Source of the DNA: an uncultured Lachnospiraceae bacterium
GTDB taxonomy: Bacteria; Bacillota; Clostridia; Lachnospirales; Lachnospiraceae
Assembly: GCA_947629545.1 (NCBI GenBank)
Contig: CANREE010000015.1
Location: 1-43,329 of the forward strand
Reading direction: 5' to 3'
DNA length: 43,329 bases
The number at the start of each line of letters is the position of its first letter. The stretch's first letter is position 1. Below, one piece after another: positions 3,470 to 38,283 of this stretch. The notes below the pieces were generated by a model that saw only the letters and a program-made list of their open reading frames with translations, ran no database searches and was not told the origin of the DNA. Both the position numbers and the translations under genes were made by a program.

Positions 3470-4420
3470 CTATACAGCGCCCGGGGCACCCTCGCCGCCC
3501 CCGATCGGGCTGTAATTGATCCGCACCTTGATCGCCTGATTATAATTGCCGAACTTCTTGCCGAAGATCGTGAAACCGCCCACATTCGCCGCGTCCGCCG
3601 CCACCTCGAAGCGGAACTTCACGGTGCTCTTATAATCCAGCCGAAACCGGTCGATGGTCACATCAGAAATCTTCAGGCCATCCAGATACGTTCCGGTGCT
3701 GTCAATGACGATCAGCTTCAGCTGACCGTACTGGTTCCAGTTCGGAAACCACCAGTCCGGCGTAAAAATTCCCTGCACATCGCCGAAATCGCCGGGACTG
3801 GTCCACATGCCGATATAAACGTCGTTCAGATAGAAGCTGATATCGGACGGCCAGTCATTGTTCACCCCCGGCGCCTCGGAACTGATCTCCATGGACAGGG
3901 AAATCTGGTCAATCCGGGTCGCAGGCGGCAGAAGCGTCGGCACCAGATATTCGACATAGCCTTTCCCGAACCACAGGATCTCCGCGTACATTCGGTCAGC
4001 GTGGGCAAAATACCGCGGGTCGTCCACTTCGCCGATCAGATAGTTGCCGGTGGCGATGCCGCAGGTGGGATAAATCTCATAGCCCACATAATGTCCCACC
4101 GGAATCTCCGTATAATAGACATTTCCAAGATCTTCCTTCAGCTCCGAGACCACATCCACCAGAATCTTCTCCTGGCGCACGCGGCACAGCTTCTGGTTCC
4201 CGTGACCGCCACTCTCCGTGACGACGCTCAGCAGACCGCTCTCTTCCAGCATACGGACATGACTGGTAAGCGCGCCGTTCGTCACGCCCAGGGCAGCGGC
4301 CAGTTCATTCATATTCATCTCCCCGTTATCCAGAAGCAGCTTCACGATACGCACCCGGATCTCCGAGGCCAGCGCCTTGAACACCGGAAGCCCCTCATCC
4401 AGGTTCTTGATATGAAGCAT
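3470..4420 (-). CDS. ArsR-type winged-helix regulator with a ~220 aa C-terminal domain
   Basis: [54 protein letters not shown] is an ArsR-like wHTH; start placed at [10 protein letters not shown] rather than the longer ORF start at 4567. Confidence 0.75.
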
Positions 4421-20422: not shown

Positions 20423-21382
20423 ATGGAAAGGGAGATGGATTTTATGAAAGGGCTTCATGAAGTGCGGAATTATCCGTCCGGATTCATGGTATGGCAGGAC
20501 TGCTACGACAACATGGGCTGTCTGGCCCACTGGCATCAGGAGATCGAACTGATCTACATCCGCAGGGGAAAAGCAGATATCTGCATCGAGGACTCGGAAA
20601 TTTCCGCAAAGAAAGGCGATCTGGTCATCATCGACACGGGTGCGCTGCACTATATACCCAGCCATCGGTATCGAAACCGGATCGATTTTATCCTGTTTGA
20701 TATGAATATTATCTGGCCCAATTACCAGGCCTGTTTCTTCAAACCGCTGGTCACGGCGGAAGACCTTGACCGGTACGGCATGACGGACGCCGTCCGGGAA
20801 CTGTTTGATACGATTCACACAGAGCTGGAAGAACGGGACGATTATTATAAAGAGATCGTATCCGCGAAGCTGAAGAACGTCATGTACTCGCTCCGCCGCT
20901 ACCATTTGAACAATATCATCCCCATGCCGGACGCCAAGCCCCGTCTGGGACGTCTCCACGATATCCGGCAGCTTCTGGCGTATATCGACGAGCATTACGC
21001 CGAGACCATCACGCTGGAGGACGCCGCGCGTCAGATGAACTTAAGCTCCGAACATTTCTCGAGGACGTTCAGCAAGGTCGTGGGGATCAATTACATTTCC
21101 TATCTGAACATGGTGCGGGTGGAGCATGCGGCGAAAATGATCTGCAGTACGGACGCCAAGATGATCGACGTGGCGTTATCCTGCGGATTTACCAACATCC
21201 GCGTGTTCAACCGCTGTTTCAAACAGTATACGGGGTATCCCCCCACACAGTTCATGGCACTGCCTGATTCCGTAAAGGAATCGTTTCCCTTCTACAGAAG
21301 AAAGCTGGACAAGCGCGAATATGTGCAGGGGACCTCGCCGGTGGTCATCCTCACGTCCGGGGATGAGGCCGACAAGGCGTGA
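20423..21382 (+). CDS. AraC-family transcriptional regulator (cupin sensor plus two HTHs)
   Basis: 319 aa; HWHQEIELIYIRRGKADI, ITLEDAARQMNLSSEHFSRTFSKVVGINYISYLNMVRVEHA, CGFTNIRVFNRCFKQYTGYPPTQF. Confidence 0.93.
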   Translation: MEREMDFMKGLHEVRNYPSGFMVWQDCYDNMGCLAHWHQEIELIYIRRGKADICIEDSEISAKKGDLVIIDTGALHYIPSHRYRNRIDFILFDMNIIWPNYQACFFKPLVTAEDLDRYGMTDAVRELFDTIHTELEERDDYYKEIVSAKLKNVMYSLRRYHLNNIIPMPDAKPRLGRLHDIRQLLAYIDEHYAETITLEDAARQMNLSSEHFSRTFSKVVGINYISYLNMVRVEHAAKMICSTDAKMIDVALSCGFTNIRVFNRCFKQYTGYPPTQFMALPDSVKESFPFYRRKLDKREYVQGTSPVVILTSGDEADKA

Positions 21383-21425
21383 CGCGTTTTTCTGGATGAC
21401 GGTACCCCCCTCGCCGGCGCGCTTC

Positions 21426-21478
21426 TTGCATCGAAATACAAGCAAGGCGTCACTGGCGCCTTGCTCGCATGGAAATAC
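21426..21478 (+). repeat. Copy A of the GCATGGAAATAC-box / TCACTGG-loop hairpin element
   Basis: TTGCATCGAAATACAAGCAAGGCGTCACTGGCGCCTTGCTCGCATGGAAATAC; 8 bp stem GCAAGGCG/CGCCTTGC. Confidence 0.9.
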
Positions 21479-21480
21479 TT

Positions 21481-21515
21481 CGGCGCCGCGGCTGACTGCC
21501 GCGGCGCCGGTTTTT
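21481..21515 (+). terminator. Strong Rho-independent terminator
   Basis: CGGCGCCGCGGC TGACT GCCGCGGCGCCG GTTTTT. Confidence 0.85.
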
Positions 21516-26826: not shown

Positions 26827-28572
26827 TCATCTCCCGCTCTTATCCCGGCCAAAGCCCAGCACCGTCGTCAGCGCCTTCCTCTGTCCCTGCGTCGGCAGCT
26901 TCAGCTTCCCGTTCCGCAGAAGCGCCGCGACGCAGTGAAGCAGAAACCACCCGTCCGAACAGAAGATAAACTGCATCTCATAGGCGCCGACCTTCTTTAG
27001 ATGCGCCGGAACCATGTCCAGCCAGGCTTTGACGTAAGGCGCTTTCAGCGCCTCAAACTCCGCCTGATATTTTCTCTTGATCCGGTCCCCGATCTCGATC
27101 AGACGCGCCTGAATATCCCTGTTTTCCAGTATCACGATCTGCCACACGGCCTGAAACAGGCTGTCATAGTCGCCGCAGGTCTTTACATAGCCCTGCTCCG
27201 CCAGCCACGCGTATTCATCCCGGGAGAGACGCTCCTTCTTTTCCCGCTCATACAGGGCGATCACGCGCAGCGCGTCCTCGCTGACATGCATCAGCCGGCC
27301 TTCCTCCTTCCGGTCGGACCACTCGCTGTCCACCTGCCAGAGCATCCGCCCGCCGGGACCGTCCGCGCTCCACATAGGGCCGCACCAGCCTTTCATATAG
27401 ACATAATCCTCCGGCAGCCTCAGATCGTCGGGAACCACCGTCGCGAGGACGATATTCTGTCCGCCGTCAGCCCGGATCGTCGCCGCCTCCTCAAAGGAGA
27501 TCTTCCTGTCCGTCAATTCCTCCCCGGACCAGGCCGCGATGAACGGGATCAGCGTCCACAGAAGGAAATTGTGATCCGCCCGGGCGTTATCCGCAGGCGT
27601 AACCGGCCCGTCCGTCTGCCGGCAGAGGATCCCCGGATCGTCCAGAATCCCGCTGCCGGTCAGCTCGTCATACAGTTCGTTGGCGAACAGCTCCGCCGCC
27701 GCCTTATACATCCGGTCCTGCATAGTCAGAAGCTCCGCCGTGGGCTCGCTGATCAGGAAATTCACGATATATCGTCCGTTCTTCTCCAAAAGGAAGCCGT
27801 ATTTCTCCAGAAACTCGACCTCGGTCTCCACATAGACCGGAGAAACGCCCAGATCGTCGGCGATCCCGCTTACGGTCTTCGCCGTCTCCCGGACGCAGTA
27901 GCAGATATTCTGCGACAACGCGGAGCGGAAGAACTCGTCCAAAGACTTCGTACCGCCTTTCCCGTTCATTCCGATCGAATGAAAATGGATCGGATTAAAT
28001 TTCAGATCACTTGGTTGTCTCATTTTGTCCATTCCTCTTTTCAATTCCTTTTTTGCTTCGAACAAATGCCATTTGACCGTGCCGAGAGGAAGACCCAGTT
28101 CGCGGGCGATATCCGCCTGCTTTCGGTTCTCGAAATAATACGCGATGACGATCCGCCGCTGCATCCCGGACAGATACGCGATCTCTCCCTGCAGCCGCCG
28201 GATGGTTTCTCTCTCCTCCTCCGCTTCCAGCGCTCCTTCCGGCCCCGCTCCCGGATCGGAAACCGCCTCGGCCGCTTCCTCCAGCGGAACGCCCACGATC
28301 CCCCGGGACGTCTCCCGGTAATAGCTGTTCAGCGTGTTGTGGGCGATGGTCCAGATAAATTTGCGCGCGTCCTCGATGTCGTCCCGAAGAAGAAGCGCCC
28401 GAAACGCCCGGGCCGCGATCTCCTGCGACAGATCCTCCGCGTCGTGGACGTTGCCGCAGCGCTTTAAGGCAAAGCCGAAGATCGGGCTTAAATATTCCGT
28501 GATGATCCTCTCCGCTTCCTGTCTGAGCACCTGTTCATACCTCCTTGCAGCCGTTTGAAAGCTTTCACTCAT
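26827..28572 (-). CDS. ECF-type sigma-70 factor with a ~400 aa C-terminal extension
   Basis: MSESFQTAARRYEQVLRQEAERIITEYLSPIFGFALKRCGNVHDAEDLSQEIAARAF (sigma2) and MQRRIVIAYYFENRKQADIARELGLPLGTVKWHLFEAKKEL (sigma4), then a second wHTH-like segment SGIADDLGVSPVYVETEVEFLEKYGFL; start moved inward from the ORF start at 28758. Confidence 0.85.
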   Translation of the reverse strand: MSESFQTAARRYEQVLRQEAERIITEYLSPIFGFALKRCGNVHDAEDLSQEIAARAFRALLLRDDIEDARKFIWTIAHNTLNSYYRETSRGIVGVPLEEAAEAVSDPGAGPEGALEAEEERETIRRLQGEIAYLSGMQRRIVIAYYFENRKQADIARELGLPLGTVKWHLFEAKKELKRGMDKMRQPSDLKFNPIHFHSIGMNGKGGTKSLDEFFRSALSQNICYCVRETAKTVSGIADDLGVSPVYVETEVEFLEKYGFLLEKNGRYIVNFLISEPTAELLTMQDRMYKAAAELFANELYDELTGSGILDDPGILCRQTDGPVTPADNARADHNFLLWTLIPFIAAWSGEELTDRKISFEEAATIRADGGQNIVLATVVPDDLRLPEDYVYMKGWCGPMWSADGPGGRMLWQVDSEWSDRKEEGRLMHVSEDALRVIALYEREKKERLSRDEYAWLAEQGYVKTCGDYDSLFQAVWQIVILENRDIQARLIEIGDRIKRKYQAEFEALKAPYVKAWLDMVPAHLKKVGAYEMQFIFCSDGWFLLHCVAALLRNGKLKLPTQGQRKALTTVLGFGRDKSGR

Positions 28573-28610
28573 ATAGACGCCGGGGATGGAAAAAGGTTGG
28601 CGAAAATCGC

Positions 28611-28639
28611 TTGTCTTTGCTGTTATTATACCATATAAT
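28611..28639 (+). promoter_or_regulatory. Predicted sigma-A promoter for the LytTR gene
   Basis: TTGTCT-17 nt-TATAAT. Confidence 0.6.
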
Positions 28640-28685
28640 ACAAACAAGGCGTCACTGGCGCCTTTCTTGCATGGAAATACAAAAA
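28629..28685 (+). repeat. Copy B of the hairpin element
   Basis: ACCATATAATACAAACAAGGCGTCACTGGCGCCTTTCTTGCATGGAAATACAAAAAA; stem AAGGCG/CGCCTT. Confidence 0.88.
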
Positions 28686-28717
28686 ATGTCCGGGATATCC
28701 CGGCCCGGAGGGATTGC

Positions 28718-29530
28718 ATGAAGACAGACGATCTGATCCGCCGCTCCATTTTCATCATAACGGAATATTACAAGAACAATCTGGAGCCGTTCTTTGAGTA
28801 TATCAGCGACGACGTCCTGTGGCTCGGCCCCGCCGAACGGCAGCAGATCCAGGGAAAGGATACCCTGATACAGACCTGGAGCAGGGAAAAGCATACCCTG
28901 ACCTTCACCATGGGCAATATCACGGCCCTGTGCGTCTCTCCCCACACCCATGTGAAGGAGATCATCCTGCATTACGACGTTCTCACCCATTATCCCAGCG
29001 GCAATATCGTTCCGCACGACCAGCTGCTGCACTATACATGGCGGGAAAGGCGGGTGAAGACCGTTTCCGGCTGGGAATACCGGCCCGAGATCGTCATGCT
29101 GCACATCAGCAATCTGTGGAAATACGACAACCGGGACACGATCTATCCCGTTCACTATGAAGACATGACGCTGCCGCCGCAGCCTCCCGCAAAGCCGGAC
29201 CGCTTCGTGATCGTAAAGGCGTCCGACTTAAGCGTACACCGCGTCGCGGCGGACCAGATCTTATATATCGAGACCGTCAAGCGCGCCGCAAAGCTGCGGA
29301 TCCATATGACAGATGATACGCTGACGATCAACGAAACGCTGCACGAATTCGAACGGAAATACCCTGGACTTTTTCTGCGCGCCCACGCCGGGTACCTGCT
29401 CAATCCGGCCCATGTGCGCAAGATCCGCCGGTTCTTCGTGACCTTATCCGACGGGACGCAGCTCCCGGTTCCGGAAAAGAAATATACGCAGGTCAAAAAA
29501 ATACTCCTGCAGGAGAGCGCGAAAGAATAG
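28718..29530 (+). CDS. LytTR DNA-binding regulator with an N-terminal SnoaL/NTF2-like domain
   Basis: N-terminus IRRSIFIITEYYKNNLEPFFEYISDDVLWLGPAERQQIQGKDTLIQTW resembles SnoaL-like folds; C-terminus ILYIETVKRAAKLRIHMTDDTLTINETLHEFERKYPGLFLRAHAGYLLNPAHVRKI is LytTR. Confidence 0.82.
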   Translation: MKTDDLIRRSIFIITEYYKNNLEPFFEYISDDVLWLGPAERQQIQGKDTLIQTWSREKHTLTFTMGNITALCVSPHTHVKEIILHYDVLTHYPSGNIVPHDQLLHYTWRERRVKTVSGWEYRPEIVMLHISNLWKYDNRDTIYPVHYEDMTLPPQPPAKPDRFVIVKASDLSVHRVAADQILYIETVKRAAKLRIHMTDDTLTINETLHEFERKYPGLFLRAHAGYLLNPAHVRKIRRFFVTLSDGTQLPVPEKKYTQVKKILLQESAKE

Positions 29531-29591
29531 ATACGCTCCTGCAGGAGTCCGCAGTCAGACCGCCTCAGACAACAGATATTCTGCCCCTTCC

Positions 29592-30707
29592 CTACCGCTC
29601 GCCGCGGGCTGTCATATCAAGCCGCCTTTCGATCTCCGCCTTCCATGCGGCCTTATCCCGGGAACCGATGATCATGTCGCCTACCTGGTTCCCGGCGCTG
29701 TCCACGAATAAAGACGTGGGATAGGCCTGCACATGGTCGCGGATGAACCCGGTCAGCAGACCGCCTGCGGGATTCAGGTTCAGATAGGCGTCCGCGTGCG
29801 TTTCCTTAACGATCTTCAAAGCGTCCTCATATTCGCTCTGCCGCAGCTGCCCGGTGGACGCGTCCGCGATATCCCCGCAGATTCCCACCACCTGGAAGCC
29901 CCGGTCCCGGTACTCCTCATGCAGCTCCGCCAGATCCGGCATTTCCGCCCTGCACGGCCCGCAGAAGGTGGCCCAGACATTGACAAGCGTCAGATCGTGA
30001 TCCGCGAAGATCGTCTGGTCCGCCGGATTGCCGTCCAGATCCGCCGCCTGAAAATCGGTAAACGCATCGACATGGATCCCGACGCTGGAGTGCTGCCCCG
30101 AGAAGATAAACGTCACGCTGAGCACCAGAAATACGGCCCATTTGGCGTGCCCCTTCAGGGACAGGAAAAACTCTCTCATGGAACCTGTCTTCTGGCCTGT
30201 CTCTACCCGGGAGGAGCAGAAGATAAACAAAAACATGGTTATCCCGACAGCCGGAAACATCACCAGAACGGCTTCCAGGAAAATGTAAAGCATCGTCAGG
30301 GAGATCTCCGACGCCAGCCCCTCTTTCAGCAGGGACGCCACGAAAAAATTCCCTATGTTAAGGATAAAACTTACCAGCAGCACAAGAAACACCAGAAGCG
30401 ACTCGCGGAAATACGTCACCGCTCTGTCTCCCTTCAGGCCGTTCCGAAAGCCGCTGACGGAAAACGTAAGCAGAAGCAGCGCCGCGAACACGACCGGTAT
30501 CTGGAGCAGCGCCCCGCCCCAGGCCCCCGGCTGGCTTCCCCCGATATCCAGAAGAAACGGCAGATAGCTGCAGACAGCATGAATGATGACAGCAAGACAG
30601 GCGGCGGCCGTCACGCCGCCGATGACGCAGGCGATCCTGTCCGCCAGTCCGACAGACGGCCGCTTCTCTTTTTCAACCGCTGATCCCATGACCGACCCTC
30701 CTCTCAC
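29592..30707 (-). CDS. Membrane-anchored TlpA/ResA-like thioredoxin-fold protein
   Basis: 371 aa; several TM helices then LTLVNVWATFCGPCRAEMPDLAELHEEY. Confidence 0.88.
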   Translation of the reverse strand: MRGGSVMGSAVEKEKRPSVGLADRIACVIGGVTAAACLAVIIHAVCSYLPFLLDIGGSQPGAWGGALLQIPVVFAALLLLTFSVSGFRNGLKGDRAVTYFRESLLVFLVLLVSFILNIGNFFVASLLKEGLASEISLTMLYIFLEAVLVMFPAVGITMFLFIFCSSRVETGQKTGSMREFFLSLKGHAKWAVFLVLSVTFIFSGQHSSVGIHVDAFTDFQAADLDGNPADQTIFADHDLTLVNVWATFCGPCRAEMPDLAELHEEYRDRGFQVVGICGDIADASTGQLRQSEYEDALKIVKETHADAYLNLNPAGGLLTGFIRDHVQAYPTSLFVDSAGNQVGDMIIGSRDKAAWKAEIERRLDMTARGER

Positions 30708-30716
30708 CGCGGTCCA

Positions 30717-30875
30717 TTATCCGATCCCGATACATTCCAGACAGATGTTGGCCGCCTTGTTAAATACGGCAGCCGGCTCTCCCTGCATGACTCCCAATAC
30801 GATCAGCACAGCGGACAGCGCGATCAGTCCTAAACGGATCATGACTTTTTGTTTCTCACTCAGATTCCGGCTCAT
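30717..30875 (-). CDS. CD1871A-type CXXC-containing small membrane protein
   Basis: 52 aa not in the supplied ORF list: [52 protein letters not shown]; lies between tlpA-like and the ferredoxin gene and overlaps the latter's stop. Confidence 0.85.
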
Positions 30876-31750
30876 TTCGCTTCCTCCAGTCTGCTCTTCT
30901 TCCCGAAAAGCTCCCCCGCCGATGTGGTGATGGCACCCTTAGGGCACGCGTCCACGCACCTGCCGCAGCGGATGCACTCCATGCTGTTGGGCGTCTCCCA
31001 TGTCTTCACGTCCATGGGGCAGACCTTCCGGCACCCGCCGCATTTTACGCAGGCCGTTTCGTCCACCTTCAGCCTGTAGAAGGAAACGGGATTGAAAATG
31101 CCGTAAAGCGCCCCCAGGGGACACAGATATTTGCAGAATGGCCTGCTGTACCTGACGGACAGCCAGAGGATCACGATCAGGACCCACAGCTTCCATCGGA
31201 ACAGAATGCCGGCGGCGCTTCGGATCCCCTCGTTGCCGAGCGCCAGAGGGATCCCTCCCAGAAGCGTTCCGCTGGGACAGATCCATTTGCAGAACCAGGG
31301 AGTCCCGGCCAGATCTCCCTTCACGAAATACGGAAGGATGATGACGAACAGCGCCAGAACCACGTATTTCAGGTACCGGAGGTACTTATCGCCCGGCATG
31401 TTCTTCGCCTTCTTCTTAAGGGGGATCTTGTTCAGCATATCCTGCACAAACCCGAACGGGCACAGCCAGCCGCAGATAAACCGTCCCAGAAACGTGCCGA
31501 ACGCCATCAGCATGCCGAACACGTAGCAGGACAGCTTAAAGGAACCGCTGTCCAGCACGGCCTGCAGAGAACCGATGGGGCAGGCGTACAGGGCGCCGGG
31601 ACAGGAATAGCAGTTGAGCCCGGGCACGCAGACCGTCTTGGTCTTTCCAGTGAAGATCTTCCCCTGAAGATAACCGGCCGCGTAGCCGTTGGTCAGGGCG
31701 AACCACGCCGCCTGGACCCAGTGGCGGAAAGCGCCGCTTTTCTTTTGCAT
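30872..31750 (-). CDS. NapH/YccM-like membrane 4Fe-4S binding protein
   Basis: [70 protein letters not shown]; start at [11 protein letters not shown]. Confidence 0.88.
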
Positions 31751-31778
31751 AGGTATCTTATTTCCTCCTTTTCCGCCG

Positions 31779-33836
31779 TTACCAGACTTTGATCCGGTCC
31801 TCCGGCGCGAGATACATCCCATCGCCTTCCTGGATACCGTAGGTCTCCAGAAATTCGTCAAACTGCTGAAGCGTTACATTGACCCGCAGGTATTCCGGCG
31901 GGTGAGGATCATAGATATACCGGTATTCCGTCGCGTAAGGCGTCTGTTTGCCGCACCAGAGCGCCGCGTAGGAACGGAACATGGTATCGTAATCAAAACT
32001 ATCTTCCTTTTCCGCCAGCCGCAGCATACACTGGAGACCGGCAATGTCCGCCGTCGCCTCGCCGTCCAGCTTGGCCCCGACCAGATATTTATCTCCGTAG
32101 ACGGCGATCCGGTCATAGAAAGTCCGTACCTTTTCGACCCTTTCCTCGAAAGCCCCGCTGTCCGCTTCCGGCCACCAGTCGATCATATTGCCGTCCTTGT
32201 CAAACTGACGGCCCGTGCTGTCAAACGCGTGGGAGATCTCATGGCCGATGACGGCGCCGATCCTTCCGTAAATCTCTTCCCTGCTCATATCCGTGGTATA
32301 GGTCTCCTCGCCCAGGATCCCCAACAGGATCGTGATGGAATTATTGAGCGGATTGTAGAAAGCATTGGCCTCAAGAGGGTCTTCCAGCCAGATCTCCGGA
32401 TCCACCTTATGATTCAGCATGGAGCAGGCCTTCCGGAGCTCAAACTTACTGATCTCCTGCAAAGCTTCATAATAATTCATCCCGGTCACGTCCAGCCCGC
32501 TGTAATCCTCCCATTTATCCGGATATACGGCGTTGATGGTGACGGCGTCCAGCTTCTCCACCGCCTTATCCTTCATTTCCTGGCTGAGCCAGTCTTCCTC
32601 CTGAAGCATCAGGCGGTATTCGGCGATAACGTCCTTACAGAGTTCCGTGATCTGCTCCTTCATCTCCGGCGAAGCGTACCGCTCCACGTACGCCTGCTGC
32701 ATAAATGTGCCCAGATCCTGATCAACCTGAGAAAGCAGCATTCTATCATATTCTCTGATGTCCTCGGTGCCCATGATCTCCTGCGCGATCTCTTTTACAT
32801 GGATCATGGCCTCCCTGCTCAGGTCGCCGGTGCTGTCGATCAGGCAACGGACCTTCATCCAGTTCTTGATATCCTCCAGATTCGACTCATCGCCCAGCAG
32901 TTCCGCGATGAATTCGATCTGATCCGGCATGTAATTCATAAGCCGCTCCGGAAAATAGCCGTTGTCCTCCAGCTCTGCTTTCAGATCATAGCTTTCACCC
33001 AGCATCTGAACCAGCTCGTCAACAGTGATATAGTTGTTCAGCTTCGCGACGGCATCCGCCCCCATCATCTCCTCCTGCGTCAGGGTATGCTCCGCAATCT
33101 TCGCCTCGAAAGTGATCATCCGGTCAAACTCCTGATCCGCCTCTTCTCTGTCAAAACCCATAATCTCACAGCCGTACTCATAAATCTGCTTGTTTACCTC
33201 ATAAGCGATCTCGCCGGACTCTGTGCGCTCCTCATACTCGGCGGCATCCTCCAATATGAGGGAAGGACCGTTTATCCCTCCGATGTAGGTGGTGGGATCA
33301 TCCAGAGCGACATCCACGCCAAACGTCAGCAGCCCCCACGCAGCCAGGGAATGCGTACTCCACCATACATGAACCGCGTCATAATAATCCTTCATGGTCG
33401 TCATATTGCCGATCATGTCAAGATTCTCCCGCAGCAGTTCCTTCGCCAGAGGCTCCCTCGTCTCCCAGTCGTCCAGCGCGTGATAGTAGGCACGCAGCTG
33501 CTCCGCCTCCCGGCTGGTAAAGCTCTCGTCGGTGATCAGGGCCATCATGTTGTCTTCTACGAGCTTCTCGGTCTCGTCCATGGCTGTTCCGATCATGCTG
33601 CCCGGCTCATAGGTAAGCGCCATGATCTCTTCCTTATTGACAGCCAGATAAAAGTCGTCCTTCAGGTTTACCTCTGTATCCGGCGTCACGTTGCCGTCGA
33701 TATTGGAATCAAGCCAGGGCGTTCCCGAAGTATAATCCGGCGCTCTGCTTCCGCAGCCAGGGAGCATTACCACAGTCATGGCTGCCGCCAGCAAAAGCGC
33801 GGTCAGCCGCCTGTTCCATAACTTATTCGTCTTCAT
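31779..33836 (-). CDS. M13-family (neprilysin/PepO-like) metallopeptidase lipoprotein
   Basis: 685 aa; lipobox TVVMLPGCGSR; IGAVIGHEISHAFDSTGRQFDKDG (HExxH). Confidence 0.92.
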   Translation of the reverse strand: MKTNKLWNRRLTALLLAAAMTVVMLPGCGSRAPDYTSGTPWLDSNIDGNVTPDTEVNLKDDFYLAVNKEEIMALTYEPGSMIGTAMDETEKLVEDNMMALITDESFTSREAEQLRAYYHALDDWETREPLAKELLRENLDMIGNMTTMKDYYDAVHVWWSTHSLAAWGLLTFGVDVALDDPTTYIGGINGPSLILEDAAEYEERTESGEIAYEVNKQIYEYGCEIMGFDREEADQEFDRMITFEAKIAEHTLTQEEMMGADAVAKLNNYITVDELVQMLGESYDLKAELEDNGYFPERLMNYMPDQIEFIAELLGDESNLEDIKNWMKVRCLIDSTGDLSREAMIHVKEIAQEIMGTEDIREYDRMLLSQVDQDLGTFMQQAYVERYASPEMKEQITELCKDVIAEYRLMLQEEDWLSQEMKDKAVEKLDAVTINAVYPDKWEDYSGLDVTGMNYYEALQEISKFELRKACSMLNHKVDPEIWLEDPLEANAFYNPLNNSITILLGILGEETYTTDMSREEIYGRIGAVIGHEISHAFDSTGRQFDKDGNMIDWWPEADSGAFEERVEKVRTFYDRIAVYGDKYLVGAKLDGEATADIAGLQCMLRLAEKEDSFDYDTMFRSYAALWCGKQTPYATEYRYIYDPHPPEYLRVNVTLQQFDEFLETYGIQEGDGMYLAPEDRIKVW

Positions 33837-33881
33837 CTGTTTACTTATTTATCCCTTCAAAAGCGATTTGTACCAGCGAAT

Positions 33882-35975
33882 CTATTTCAGAGTCTCCGGA
33901 TCCACCGTAAAGTAAAAATGATAATATCCGTCGGCAGTCGTGACAGTGCCGGAGCCGGAATAGTTGTTCGTATAAACCGGCACAGCGTCTGAGGATTCCG
34001 TAAGATAGAAGGTATGGGCGCCCTTCGAAACGGTCAGATGCAGTCCGTCCGCCCCGCAGGTCACTTTCTCCGGAGCCTCGTTGTCGATCACGATCTCAAA
34101 CTCCGTCCCCGCGAAATCGTACTCGCTGCCGTCCGGAGTCCGGACAGGGATCACCACATCATACGTCTCCGGGGACTTATCCCCGGCCACTATGATCCTT
34201 CCCGCCGGCCTGTCAATGGTCAGGGTATCCGCTCCGTCGTTGGTCAGATGGAGGATATAATCCATGACAATGGCGTCCTCGCCGCCCAGCTCACCGAATT
34301 TCATCGTGGAGTTAAAGCCGTCAAAGGTCGTCACATAATTGTTGGTGACCACGAAAAGATCCGTCTCCTCGTCGTCTCTGGAAAGCTCGGTACCGTCGTC
34401 AAGGACGACGGAGACCACCTTGTTCCCCGCTTCGCCCGCCGGATCATATGTGTAGGTAATCCCGGACACCTGCAGGAAGCTGCCGGATGGCCGTTCGCGG
34501 ACCAGAAGCCCCGTCTCGTCCTGTCCGGTCATCGAAAGGCCGAGCTCCAGCGCCGTATAGAGCTGGGAAGGATATACCCGGATCACATCCACCGTGTTGC
34601 CATGGTTGAAGGCGTTTAAGATATCTCCCCGCGTCACATTTCCGTAAGGAAGGGTCGCGCTGATCCCGCCGCCGTTCTCCACGCCGATCACCGGAGCGGT
34701 TATCTTGTTATTGTCGGCAAATATCTGACCGTAATACCGGAAGGCGTCCGTCACCAGATCGCCCATGGTGGTTTCCACGATCCTCGGCTCCGCGTAATCA
34801 TAGTAAATGTATCCGCCCCAGATGGGAGCGCCGGTAAGGGCCACCTCCTCGGCCAGGATCGGATCGATCTCGATAATGCTTTCGTCATAGGCAGCCGTAA
34901 CCGCGGCTTTCGCGGCCTCGCCGTCCTCATTCAGCGCATAGGAGGAAGCCCTCTCATAGTCCCAGACTTCACCCTCTGCCGTAAAACTGCCTTTGCCGTC
35001 GAAGGAAACAGCGACGACGCCCAGTCCTGTATTCCGGGTTCCGGTCTGAACGATGGGGACGGAACCGACTGTCGTCTGCTCGATCGTATGGCTGTGGCCG
35101 TCTACGACGGCGGCTACCTTCGCAAGTTCTTCCGAGGAGAGCCCCTTAAGAAGCTGCTCAGAAGTAACATCCGCGGCAAGGGCGTTATCGCCGAGATGGG
35201 TCACCAAAACGATCGCGTCCACGCTGTCCGCGATCTCCCCGATCTCGCCTTTGGCGGTCTCGATCTCATTTTTAAAGGCAATGCCCTGAAGCTTTTCCGG
35301 ATTGGTTGATGTCGCCGTCGACACGGTGGTGAGACCTATGATGCCGATCCTGTATCCCGCCGTCTCAACAATAACGTGACTGTCCAGCAAAGGTTCTCCG
35401 TCCTTTAAGGTGTTGGCGGAAAGAATGGGAAACTGCGCTTTCCGCGCGTTGGCCAGAAGCGCGTCCGCCCCGTAGTCAAACTCGTGGTTGCCCGCCGCCA
35501 TAGCCGCGTAGCCGGCGGCATTCATGACGTCGATCACATAGGCGCCGCTGCCGACGGTGGCGAAGCTGGCTCCCTGCGTAGCGTCTCCGGCGTCCAGAAG
35601 AATAGAGTTCTCCGTGGATGCCGCTATGCCCGCCACCTGCGGCAGCCCGATCATTCCATCGTCAGGGCTTTCCGCCACGTTGCCGTGGATATCGTTGGTG
35701 GAATAGATCGTTACCACCGCCGGGGCGCGGTCCGCAGCCGCTTCCCCGGAGACGGTTTCCGCCGCGCTTTCTGCGCCGTTCTCCACAGCATCGCTTTCTG
35801 CGCCGGTTTCCGCCGCGCCGCTTTCAGAGCCGGCTCCCGCGGCCCCCGCTGATTCCGTCTGAGAAGCCCCGCCTGCGGTCTCCTGGGTATTTCCCCTTCT
35901 CCCGCAGGCGCTTGATCCAAACACCAGAATCAGACATAATACAACTGCTGTTGCTTTATAATATAGTTTTTTCAT
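33882..35975 (-). CDS. 5'-nucleotidase / UDP-sugar hydrolase-like lipoprotein
   Basis: 697 aa; LVFGSSACGRRG lipobox, TIYSTNDIHGNV, AAGNHEFDYGADALL, VDGHSHTIEQ. Confidence 0.92.
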   Translation of the reverse strand: MKKLYYKATAVVLCLILVFGSSACGRRGNTQETAGGASQTESAGAAGAGSESGAAETGAESDAVENGAESAAETVSGEAAADRAPAVVTIYSTNDIHGNVAESPDDGMIGLPQVAGIAASTENSILLDAGDATQGASFATVGSGAYVIDVMNAAGYAAMAAGNHEFDYGADALLANARKAQFPILSANTLKDGEPLLDSHVIVETAGYRIGIIGLTTVSTATSTNPEKLQGIAFKNEIETAKGEIGEIADSVDAIVLVTHLGDNALAADVTSEQLLKGLSSEELAKVAAVVDGHSHTIEQTTVGSVPIVQTGTRNTGLGVVAVSFDGKGSFTAEGEVWDYERASSYALNEDGEAAKAAVTAAYDESIIEIDPILAEEVALTGAPIWGGYIYYDYAEPRIVETTMGDLVTDAFRYYGQIFADNNKITAPVIGVENGGGISATLPYGNVTRGDILNAFNHGNTVDVIRVYPSQLYTALELGLSMTGQDETGLLVRERPSGSFLQVSGITYTYDPAGEAGNKVVSVVLDDGTELSRDDEETDLFVVTNNYVTTFDGFNSTMKFGELGGEDAIVMDYILHLTNDGADTLTIDRPAGRIIVAGDKSPETYDVVIPVRTPDGSEYDFAGTEFEIVIDNEAPEKVTCGADGLHLTVSKGAHTFYLTESSDAVPVYTNNYSGSGTVTTADGYYHFYFTVDPETLK

Positions 35976-36012
35976 GACAGACGTTTTCGTTAACTCCTTT
36001 TGCTTCTTAATT

Positions 36013-36411
36013 TTACTGCGCCTGATCGATCTTATTCTGCTGGAACACAGAGTAACAGAACAGAGCCGGTATCATCGCGCCGGCAATGATCGAAAAATAT
36101 TCGCTGACGCCGCCTGCAGTAACGGCGCTGAATACAACCGGGGCGATAAGCGTGAAAATGGATACCTTATACACAAGATCGATCTCTTTATGCTGCAGGG
36201 CCATGATCGCAAGAGCAAAATTGATGATCTCGCAGACGATCGCTACCGCCAGGGATATCCACGTTAAGGGAGTGATGGCCATGCCTCCGGCCGTTTCCAC
36301 GACCGGCGCCAGAAAGGCGGCAAATCCATTGAGCAGCACCCCAAGGACGCTCTGGATCAGAATGATGATCGACATAACCTTCAGGAATGTAGTGATGGGC
36401 TTCTTTTCCAT
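36013..36411 (-). CDS. Small integral membrane protein of unknown function
   Basis: 132 aa with about four hydrophobic segments; MEKKPITTFLKVMSIIILIQSVLGVLLNGFAAFL. Confidence 0.7.
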   Translation of the reverse strand: MEKKPITTFLKVMSIIILIQSVLGVLLNGFAAFLAPVVETAGGMAITPLTWISLAVAIVCEIINFALAIMALQHKEIDLVYKVSIFTLIAPVVFSAVTAGGVSEYFSIIAGAMIPALFCYSVFQQNKIDQAQ

Positions 36412-36526
36412 AATGAAAATCCTCCTCCGTCAATGTTCTAACAGTTTCCATTATAGTCATTGCACGATTTACTGCAATATATTCTTGTTGTTCGCTTGTA
36501 TATCATGTCATATCGCTTGTTTGTAC

Positions 36527-36624
36527 TTTTTGCATGGAAATACAAAGAACGCGTCACTGGCGCGTTTTTGCATGGAAATACAAAAAATGCGTCACTGGCG
36601 CATTTTTTGCATGGAAATACAAAA
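36527..36624 (+). repeat. Copies C and D of the hairpin element (three GCATGGAAATAC boxes, two hairpins, 38-39 bp period)
   Basis: TTTTTGCATGGAAATACAAAGAACGCGTCACTGGCGCGTTTTTGCATGGAAATACAAAAAATGCGTCACTGGCGCATTTTTTGCATGGAAATACAAAA. Confidence 0.93.
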
Positions 36625-36656
36625 GAGCGCAGCCGGAAACAGCAGTGAAGCAGGTA

Positions 36657-38057
36657 TCAGTCATACATTTCATTCAATGGAACCAGCCTCACCCCGGTTT
36701 CTCCGGCCCGTTTCTTAAGCAGCTCCGTGAAGCCGCTTTTTGAAAACAGATAATAATAGTTTTTCGTGAATGCTCCCATGGCTTTCGCGTAATCCTCAAG
36801 CAGATTCAGCTCCTCCTCGGAAACAAGCCTGTTTTTGAACTTGCAGGAACCAACGATCCCGCAGCCCCCGTCCGCTGCCGTCACTACTACATCGATCTGG
36901 GCCTGCCTATGCGTCTGCGGATGCCCGCCCCACCATTGCCCCACCGCGCCGACCGCGAACGGCAGCCGCTCGTCGTAATACAGAATATAATCCCGGCACA
37001 TCCGTTCAAAAGTAAGTCCCATGTAATCCGAAAGATATTCTCCAACTGCCGCATCATAGGTCGTCCGGATCCGTCCTGAAACGATCGCGGACATATTACG
37101 CGGAATAAATGTATACCAGAATCGGAAGAACTGGTCATCCAGCTGATAGATGGGCCTCTTCGTCTGAAGATTCGTCACCGGAGTCTCTCTTCGGACGATC
37201 CCCAGAGTGATCAGATTGGCAATATATTTTGTGCAGAGACCGGTCTCCATGTTTGTCTCTGCCGCGATCTCCGACAATTTTGATTTACCGTCCGCAATGG
37301 CCGTAATCACGGAATTGTAGACTGACGGTTCCCGCAGCTCCTGCTTCAGCAGGTTGGACGGCTCCTCAAAAAGCATCGCGCTCCGATCGAACATCTGCTC
37401 CAAAATGTTCTCCCGCACAGTTCGGGTCTGCGAAAACTGCTCCAGATACAGGGGCACACCACCGGTCACTCCATACATAATCGCCTTTTCCTCATAAGAA
37501 TATTCTGGAAACCATTCCCCCGTCTCCCGATAGTCAAACGGCAGTATCTTAAACTGAGCAGTCCGGCGCCCATAAAGCGGGCTCTGATATCCCAACACCT
37601 GATTCTCCATAAAACTCATGGAAGAACCGCACAGGATCAGAAAAAGCTGCGTCGCCTTAAACTGGTGATCCAGAAAATTCTGCAGAAGCGATGAGATCCC
37701 CCGCTCTGCCTGAGCCAGATACGGATACTCATCGATCACCAGGACAAGCCGCTCCGACCGCGCCATCTGCGCGACCCGCAAAAACGCGTCGCGAAAGCTC
37801 TGAAATGAAAACCGGCCGCCGTCCTCCGAGAGTTCGCCCGCGTCAGCCGCCCTGACCGCCTCTGACAGTCCTTCCAGATTCTGTCTTGCACTGTTCTCCT
37901 GCGCGGCAAAAAAAATGGTTCGCTTATCCTTACAGAACTCGCTGATCAGCGTCGTCTTGCCTACCCTCCGGCGGCCATAGATAACTGCGGCCTCCAGCCG
38001 GCCGCTCTGATACATCTGATTCAATCTCTTTAGTTCGCGCTGTCTGCCGATGAACAT
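36657..38057 (-). CDS. AAA+ ATPase with DUF234-like C-terminus
   Basis: 466 aa; MFIGRQRELKRLNQMY, VIYGRRRVGKTTLISEF (Walker A), LVLVIDEYPYLA (Walker B), C-terminal KNRLVSEEELNLLEDYAKAMG. Confidence 0.87.
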   Translation of the reverse strand: MFIGRQRELKRLNQMYQSGRLEAAVIYGRRRVGKTTLISEFCKDKRTIFFAAQENSARQNLEGLSEAVRAADAGELSEDGGRFSFQSFRDAFLRVAQMARSERLVLVIDEYPYLAQAERGISSLLQNFLDHQFKATQLFLILCGSSMSFMENQVLGYQSPLYGRRTAQFKILPFDYRETGEWFPEYSYEEKAIMYGVTGGVPLYLEQFSQTRTVRENILEQMFDRSAMLFEEPSNLLKQELREPSVYNSVITAIADGKSKLSEIAAETNMETGLCTKYIANLITLGIVRRETPVTNLQTKRPIYQLDDQFFRFWYTFIPRNMSAIVSGRIRTTYDAAVGEYLSDYMGLTFERMCRDYILYYDERLPFAVGAVGQWWGGHPQTHRQAQIDVVVTAADGGCGIVGSCKFKNRLVSEEELNLLEDYAKAMGAFTKNYYYLFSKSGFTELLKKRAGETGVRLVPLNEMYD

Positions 38058-38283
38058 AGAATTCCTCCGATTATTGTCTTTGCCTGATCTGTATAATAGT
38101 AAATCACGATATAGTATATTATAATTCAGTATATTAAGTCTGTCAATACTCCAACAAAATAGTGATGATCCAGTTTGACCAAATCAAAGCTCTATCAAAT
38201 AGAAATCACCTTGCCTGCTCGAATATTTTGGAGTACAATAGAATACAGAGATCCGAAACCGATTCCGCAGAAAGGAGCACAGC

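Follow-up and report, generated by a model that had tools for sequence, protein, structure and literature searches.

A previously undescribed family of 39-nt hairpins, with well above 100 dispersed copies per genome, was found in a genus of Lachnospiraceae. The element is probably a REP-like, nonautonomous mobile DNA hairpin that inserts next to an existing hairpin, always in the same polarity. Direct observations of its dispersal, its base pairing, its 39-nt step, empty sites in relatives, a hairpin neighbor on one side, and in-frame copies within genes led us to this reading. The polar placement beside hairpins, with the 3' side of the element facing a usually terminator-like hairpin, is the new finding.

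Abundance and distribution of the element

Four hairpins with a TCACTGG loop and adjoining GCATGGAAATAC boxes had been predicted in the window (the whole 43,329-nt stretch analyzed), and each was found at, or a few bases from, its predicted place (Table 1). Their common orientation, also predicted, holds for the window, where all copies are on the + strand, but not genome-wide, where copies occur on both strands. TCACTGG alone was present nine times in the window versus 3.7 times expected, which makes the loop motif unremarkable by itself, unlike the full core. The core, CGTCACTGGCG, had 37 exact matches in the 2.95-Mb window genome and its reversed form, used as a control, had none, confirming the expectation of further genomic copies and the dispersal of the element. 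A covariance model derived from 30 copies matched at least 98 places in the window genome at E < 0.05. For the relative G015 (1.87 Mb), a scanner combining a position weight matrix (PWM) with pairing returned 138 copies, or 118 once opposite-strand duplicates of the near-palindrome were dropped, and none in the same sequence reversed.

The element was identified in 15 of the 26 genomes of the genus and in 0 of 35 other genera, and ten of the 15 carrier genomes had at least 64 to 107 scored matches each. A consensus scan of 85,462 species genomes recovered only eight metagenome-assembled genomes (MAGs) of uncultured Lachnospiraceae, named "Lapin" (rabbit); all eight named carriers are rabbit-gut Lachnospiraceae. 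A strict pattern found no match in viral contigs, and a search of the literature for an existing description of the element returned none.

Table 1. Copies of the element in the window, adjoining features, and IS200 copies at the same target
Feature	Position	Strand	Basis
Two-unit head-to-tail array	36538..36619	+	sequence; covariance-model match at 36576; direct repeats spaced 38-39
Units of the 36538 array	~36538-36580, stem AACGCG/CGCGTT; ~36576-36619, stem AATGCG/CGCATT	+	sequence
Remnant (3' part) of an additional truncated unit, TTTTTGCATGG, at the array's 5' end	36527..36537	+	sequence; direct repeat
Single intact unit 3' of ORF 20423-21382	21434..21477	+	covariance model, 70.8 bits; sequence
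Degenerate preceding unit ending TTGCATCG	21412..21433	+	sequence; seen also in the G012 ortholog of this site
Terminator-like hairpin CGGCGCCGCGGC/GCCGCGGCGCCG plus T-run, 3 nt past the element	21481..21509	+	inverted repeat
Single unit inserted at TATAATAC	28636..28679	+	sequence; covariance-model match; orthologous sites of relatives
CCGGGATATCCCGG hairpin just 3' of the element	28690..28703	+	also in the empty site of G015
IS200 copies at the GTATT end of the element	G008 L127:1429-2107; G012 L130:1253-1923

The relative G002 (L138, C91) is 99% identical to window positions 26843-38160, and other shared regions are 86-96% identical. This unevenness suggests that these MAGs are related in a mosaic fashion or have recently exchanged DNA.

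Unit structure and stem covariation

From 5' to 3', the 39-nt unit consists of AATAC, one strand of an 11-bp covarying stem, the TCACTGG loop, the returning stem strand, and GCATGGA, with AAATACAAGCAAGGCG-TCACTGG-CGCCTTGCTTGCATGGAAATA as its consensus. The stem runs from C6-G34 to G16-C24. It can be extended inward by T.G and C-G pairs, which makes an ACT triloop possible, and outward by two A-T pairs past a usual A.C mismatch. The paired stem is thus 11 bp or more, longer than the 6 bp originally proposed, and the boxes taken for a separate frame are the junction of tandem 39-nt units: TTGCATGGAAATACAA joins the GCATGGA that ends one unit to the AATAC that starts the next. Longer units, spaced 43-45 nt, have the tail GCATACTGACGTAA in place of GCATGGAAA, and the 44-nt subfamily has the tail GCATACTGACGT. 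Sequence logos showed AATAC and GCATGGA or GCATACTGACG as the conserved hairpin feet. The loop, described as invariant, is strongly conserved only; covariance-model and PWM searches found the variants TCACCGG, TCGCC, and GCCACTGGC, and it is seeding with CGTCACTGGCG alone that makes the core look invariant. A third type of hairpin (AAAAAGAGCGCCATCAGCGCCCTTTTTGCATACT) follows a 44-nt-type unit at L010 ~1501-1580 and is possibly another subfamily with a different loop.

Compensatory change in the stem, as predicted, was found in two genomes. Two-sided changes affected eight of 15 stem pairs among 30 copies of the window genome (56 cells versus 23 in shuffles) and ten of 15 among 70 model-found copies of G015 (113 versus 45). 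A phylogenetic null, for which the substitutions of the tree were replayed at random positions, was applied to 277 distinct units and 903 pairs in all. Covariation beyond phylogenetic expectation was thereby obtained alignment-wide for one pair only, 10-30 (E = 0.01; pair 13-27 had E = 0.34), and for three pairs (10-30, 13-27, and 8-32, all <0.05) when only the 15 proposed pairs were counted. All six variable stem pairs ranked within the top eight of the 903. These values are to be read with the facts that a tree from 44 nt is poor and that the PWM scanner rewards pairing, so the alignment leans toward pairs. The stem covariation is supported as real but is not overwhelming. A hairpin needed for transposition would itself show covariation, which is therefore compatible with spread as a repeat.

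Gain and loss of units

Multi-unit arrays in G015 are head-to-tail, with a spacing of 39 nt in 31 of 41 cases and of 43-45 nt in seven. The site orthologous to window position 28636 has no unit in G015 (CATATAATACAGAAAAACGG), one in G000 and G002, three in G012 and G004, four in G009, and a variant array in G001. Other clean empty sites compared 44 nt with 5, 121 with 5, and 83 with 2, a net change of n x 39 nt. Given these empty sites and the differences in copy number between relatives, the element has plainly spread as a repeat. The original prediction had set selection on a fold against simple repeat spread; the folded, covarying stem stands, and the exclusion of repeat spread does not.

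Each empty site holds one AATAC-like pentamer (AATAC, AATAT, GAATC, or GATT). Within arrays, the junction pentamer matches AATAC at 95-100% per position internally and at 85-95% where an array starts on its 5' side, and only 42 of 143 arrays (29%) have an exact AATAC as their last, 3'-terminal pentamer. This pattern fits the insertion of a 39-nt unit whose own pentamer copy is the 5' one, the last copy being derived from the target. Every unit adds exactly 39 nt net, and the terminal pentamers differ. No score gradient that would give a polarity of array growth was seen along arrays (46 versus 41).

Templated correction of palindromes is known to yield compensatory changes without selection. 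Old, immobile repeats altered by tandem slippage, homologous exchange, and such correction of quasi-palindromes could thus also have acquired covarying stems, and tandem changes in copy number are indeed common. An insertion process is nevertheless needed to explain how the element came to many unrelated sites that have clean empty counterparts, and to explain the polar target rule described below; we regard immobility as very improbable.

At window positions 28630-28645, the insertion is located at a -10 box resembling TATAAT (CATATAATACA), which precedes a start codon near 28717. Copy number at the 28636 site could, judging from this placement, alter that promoter or 5' leader.

Placement with the 3' side against a hairpin

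After element-like hairpins were removed, the 3' end lay 0-12 nt from a hairpin in 74 of 205 arrays, compared with three for the 5' side; 56 of the 74 adjoining hairpins have an A- or T-tract, as terminators do. Three genome sets gave the same asymmetry, with a strong hairpin within 70 nt on the 3' side only in 36 of 79, 20 of 50, and 24 of 76 arrays and on the 5' side only in 0, 2, and 1, respectively. Permissive criteria, allowing longer loops and two mismatches, gave 136 (3') versus 20 (5') of the 205. A recognizable 3' hairpin accompanies only about one third of arrays by the strict criteria and two thirds by the permissive ones. The window copies at 21434 and 28636 obey the rule, and the 36538 array does not visibly do so. 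Because the adjoining hairpin is already present in several empty sites of relatives, the hairpins came before the element. The terminator-like hairpin at 21481..21509, which G015 has without the element, is presumed to be the target of the insertion at 21434.

Most G015 arrays (71 of 77) are outside predicted genes, in a genome with a predicted coding fraction of 85%, and 24 of 77 lie between convergent genes, an arrangement found in ~10% of gaps as background. This enrichment would suit cis-acting RNA, that is, 3' UTR hairpins that protect mRNA or aid termination and whose stems covary through RNA function. So would the many copies located between a stop codon and a terminator, and A/T-rich copies such as that at 36586, which resemble terminators. 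The 3'-hairpin rule is, however, independent of the direction of transcription in G015: a 3' hairpin accompanies eight of 19 elements in the same direction as the gene and nine of 22 in the opposite direction (16 of 24 for convergent genes). Presence and number at one site also differ between close relatives, and several copies lie in frame within coding genes. A role as an RNA or terminator element is, on balance, unlikely. The bias of copies toward the lagging strand is weak (39:23 and 82:44) and confounded with gene context.

The consensus unit, read from its sequence, is open in all three sense frames, and 39 nt equals 13 codons. The [FeFe]-hydrogenase maturase HydF of G015 (L273:4546-5901) contains three in-frame units at residues 134 to 178, between its GTPase and dimerization domains, and its score of 554.6 bits remains above the cut-off of 325.6. 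A DUF4860 gene of G009 (L211 ~4147-4237) has two in-frame units near the N terminus of a 198-aa product; its orthologs in G015 and G002 are without units and 171 aa long. Such in-frame copies show that a protein can gain 13 residues, or a multiple of 13, from the element.

We favor the insertion of a mobile DNA hairpin, which would proceed as follows. A unit would enter an AT-rich pentamer (AATAC, AATAT, GAATC, or GATT) 0-12 nt from an existing hairpin, usually an intrinsic terminator, and the 3' side of the incoming unit would always face that hairpin. Once inserted, it would form a new hairpin next to AATAC, beside which further units could insert. Each unit being a hairpin with AATAC in front of it, head-to-tail arrays are expected from this one rule. 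The mobilizing enzyme may recognize the folded single strand, which would keep the stem paired.

Candidate mobilizing enzymes

Transposition probably uses single-stranded DNA, and a Y1 (HUH) transposase of the IS200 type could act in trans, in which case the cut site would be the bottom-strand GTATT, proposed because IS200 copies themselves sit there. Of the three intact IS200 copies in carriers, those of G008 and G012 (Table 1) begin directly behind GTATT, which is the bottom-strand end of the element. The G008 copy appears to split an array junction, and in G015 an element immediately precedes a hairpin that is upstream of IS200. The placement at GTATT shows a shared target and not mobilization. 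The ends of IS200 have no resemblance to the element.

A linked RAYT or IS200-like transposase had been anticipated. No RAYT was found in the carriers, which are incomplete MAGs, half of them missing even classical IS200, and the only Y1 transposases present are of the classical IS200 type (NF033573, 159 bits; REP_Tyr_transpos, 36.6 versus a cut-off of 80). Searches for Y1 (PF01797) had no match in the window genome (83% complete) or in the high-copy carriers G002, G004, G009, G013, and G023, which is weak evidence of absence because MAGs lose multicopy insertion sequences. An IS200-type transposase is the likeliest helper, as a candidate only, and naming it is a guess.

Larger mobile units were also considered. 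Y1 genes near elements in G008, G012, and G015 might have indicated a composite transposon, and proved to be insertion-site associations only. A larger parent transposon was rejected, as the genes flanking different copies in one genome do not recur, a single paralogous pair excepted.

Group IIC introns insert beside terminator stem-loops in one orientation. Because the element shares this hallmark, we considered retro-insertion, in which an RNA hairpin would be copied by a group IIC-like reverse transcriptase. The element lacks intron-like ends, and the distribution of reverse transcriptases does not track it: RVT_1 was absent from G008 (98% complete, with over 100 copies), G004, G019, G020, and G025, had one weak match in G015, and was commonest in element-free genomes such as G003. 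We consequently rejected co-occurrence with reverse transcriptase and consider retro-insertion improbable.

Integron-like recombination was weighed as well. Each unit would then be only its own folded recombination site, and a tyrosine recombinase would carry it from one hairpin site to another. Single-site units, head-to-tail arrays, and polarity toward a hairpin all fit it. An attC core (GTTRRRY) was not seen, there are no cassette genes between units, and recurrent flanking genes are absent; we regard integron-like recombination as quite improbable. A bolder form of hairpin-adjacent insertion is a micro-cassette system, which we offer tentatively. The unit would be nothing but its folded recombination site, docked hairpin beside hairpin with fixed polarity by a putative single-strand enzyme for which any hairpin with TATT after it is a target, and host terminators and earlier copies would be equally good docking sites.

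Comparison with known systems

The prediction that the element belongs to no nameable family was borne out in that Rfam gave no match at the gathering threshold in the window, yet REP and BIME sequences are its closest kind. The element works like a REP. It is not filed as a REP family member because tests for GTAG or CGTC tags, a RAYT, and inverted dimers came out negative. Like REPs and BIMEs of the GTAG superfamily, it is an imperfect palindrome in the 20-40 bp class, high in copy number and mostly intergenic, found close to 3' ends, both in convergent gaps and in unidirectional ones, with a short loop, a mismatch near the stem base, and some in-frame gene copies (PMC3733652, PMC8266576). 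G015 illustrates this, with 138 copies in 1.87 Mb and 71 of 77 arrays extragenic. Unlike them, it has no RAYT and no GTAG tag, sequence logos showing no GTAG that could stand unpaired at the hairpin foot; TnpAREP depends both on the folded strand and on GTAG at its foot (PMC8266576). Its arrays are exclusively head-to-tail, with 39- or 44-nt units, whereas REPs favor head-to-head pairs and head-to-tail dimers are rare or absent. It also differs in lying beside unrelated hairpins with fixed polarity and in occurring in Lachnospiraceae; neither "Firmicutes" nor "Clostridi-" appears in the text of the 2013 survey of tagged REPs (PMC3733652).

CGTC-tagged REPs, including Rickettsia RPE-4/6, are likewise palindromes without a dedicated transposase and with intragenic in-frame copies, and the 44-nt subfamily has CGTC on its bottom strand (CGTCAGTATGC). 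This CGTC is several nucleotides off the foot, and in the main 39-nt subfamily CGTC is in the loop region and absent from the tail. The stem is also longer (11 bp or more versus 8-9), and the arrays are head-to-tail. REPs inserted within pre-existing palindromes are known, namely GTAG-23 of T. roseum and CGTC-1 of H. neapolitanus (PMC3733652). Those lie inside one specific palindrome, whereas the present element lies beside many unrelated terminator hairpins, on the same side. Association with hairpins therefore has precedent in the 2013 survey; placement beside diverse terminators with one polarity has none there.

With IS200/IS605 the element appears to share single-strand hairpin logic and a short A/T-rich target, the local IS200 using the same GTATT. 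It differs in having no gene, one hairpin, and ends unrelated to those of IS200. Group IIC introns also target terminator stem-loops in one orientation, but the element is 39 nt long and has neither a ribozyme nor a reverse transcriptase. An abundant hairpin, REP-like and probably mobile, occurs in gut Firmicutes, where the text of the 2013 survey names no tagged REP, and one measurable insertion rule accounts for both its association with terminators and its tandem arrays. If confirmed, terminator hairpins would be docking sites for tiny mobile DNAs, and the element would offer a comparative system for studying the movement of REP-like repeats that have neither tags nor a RAYT.
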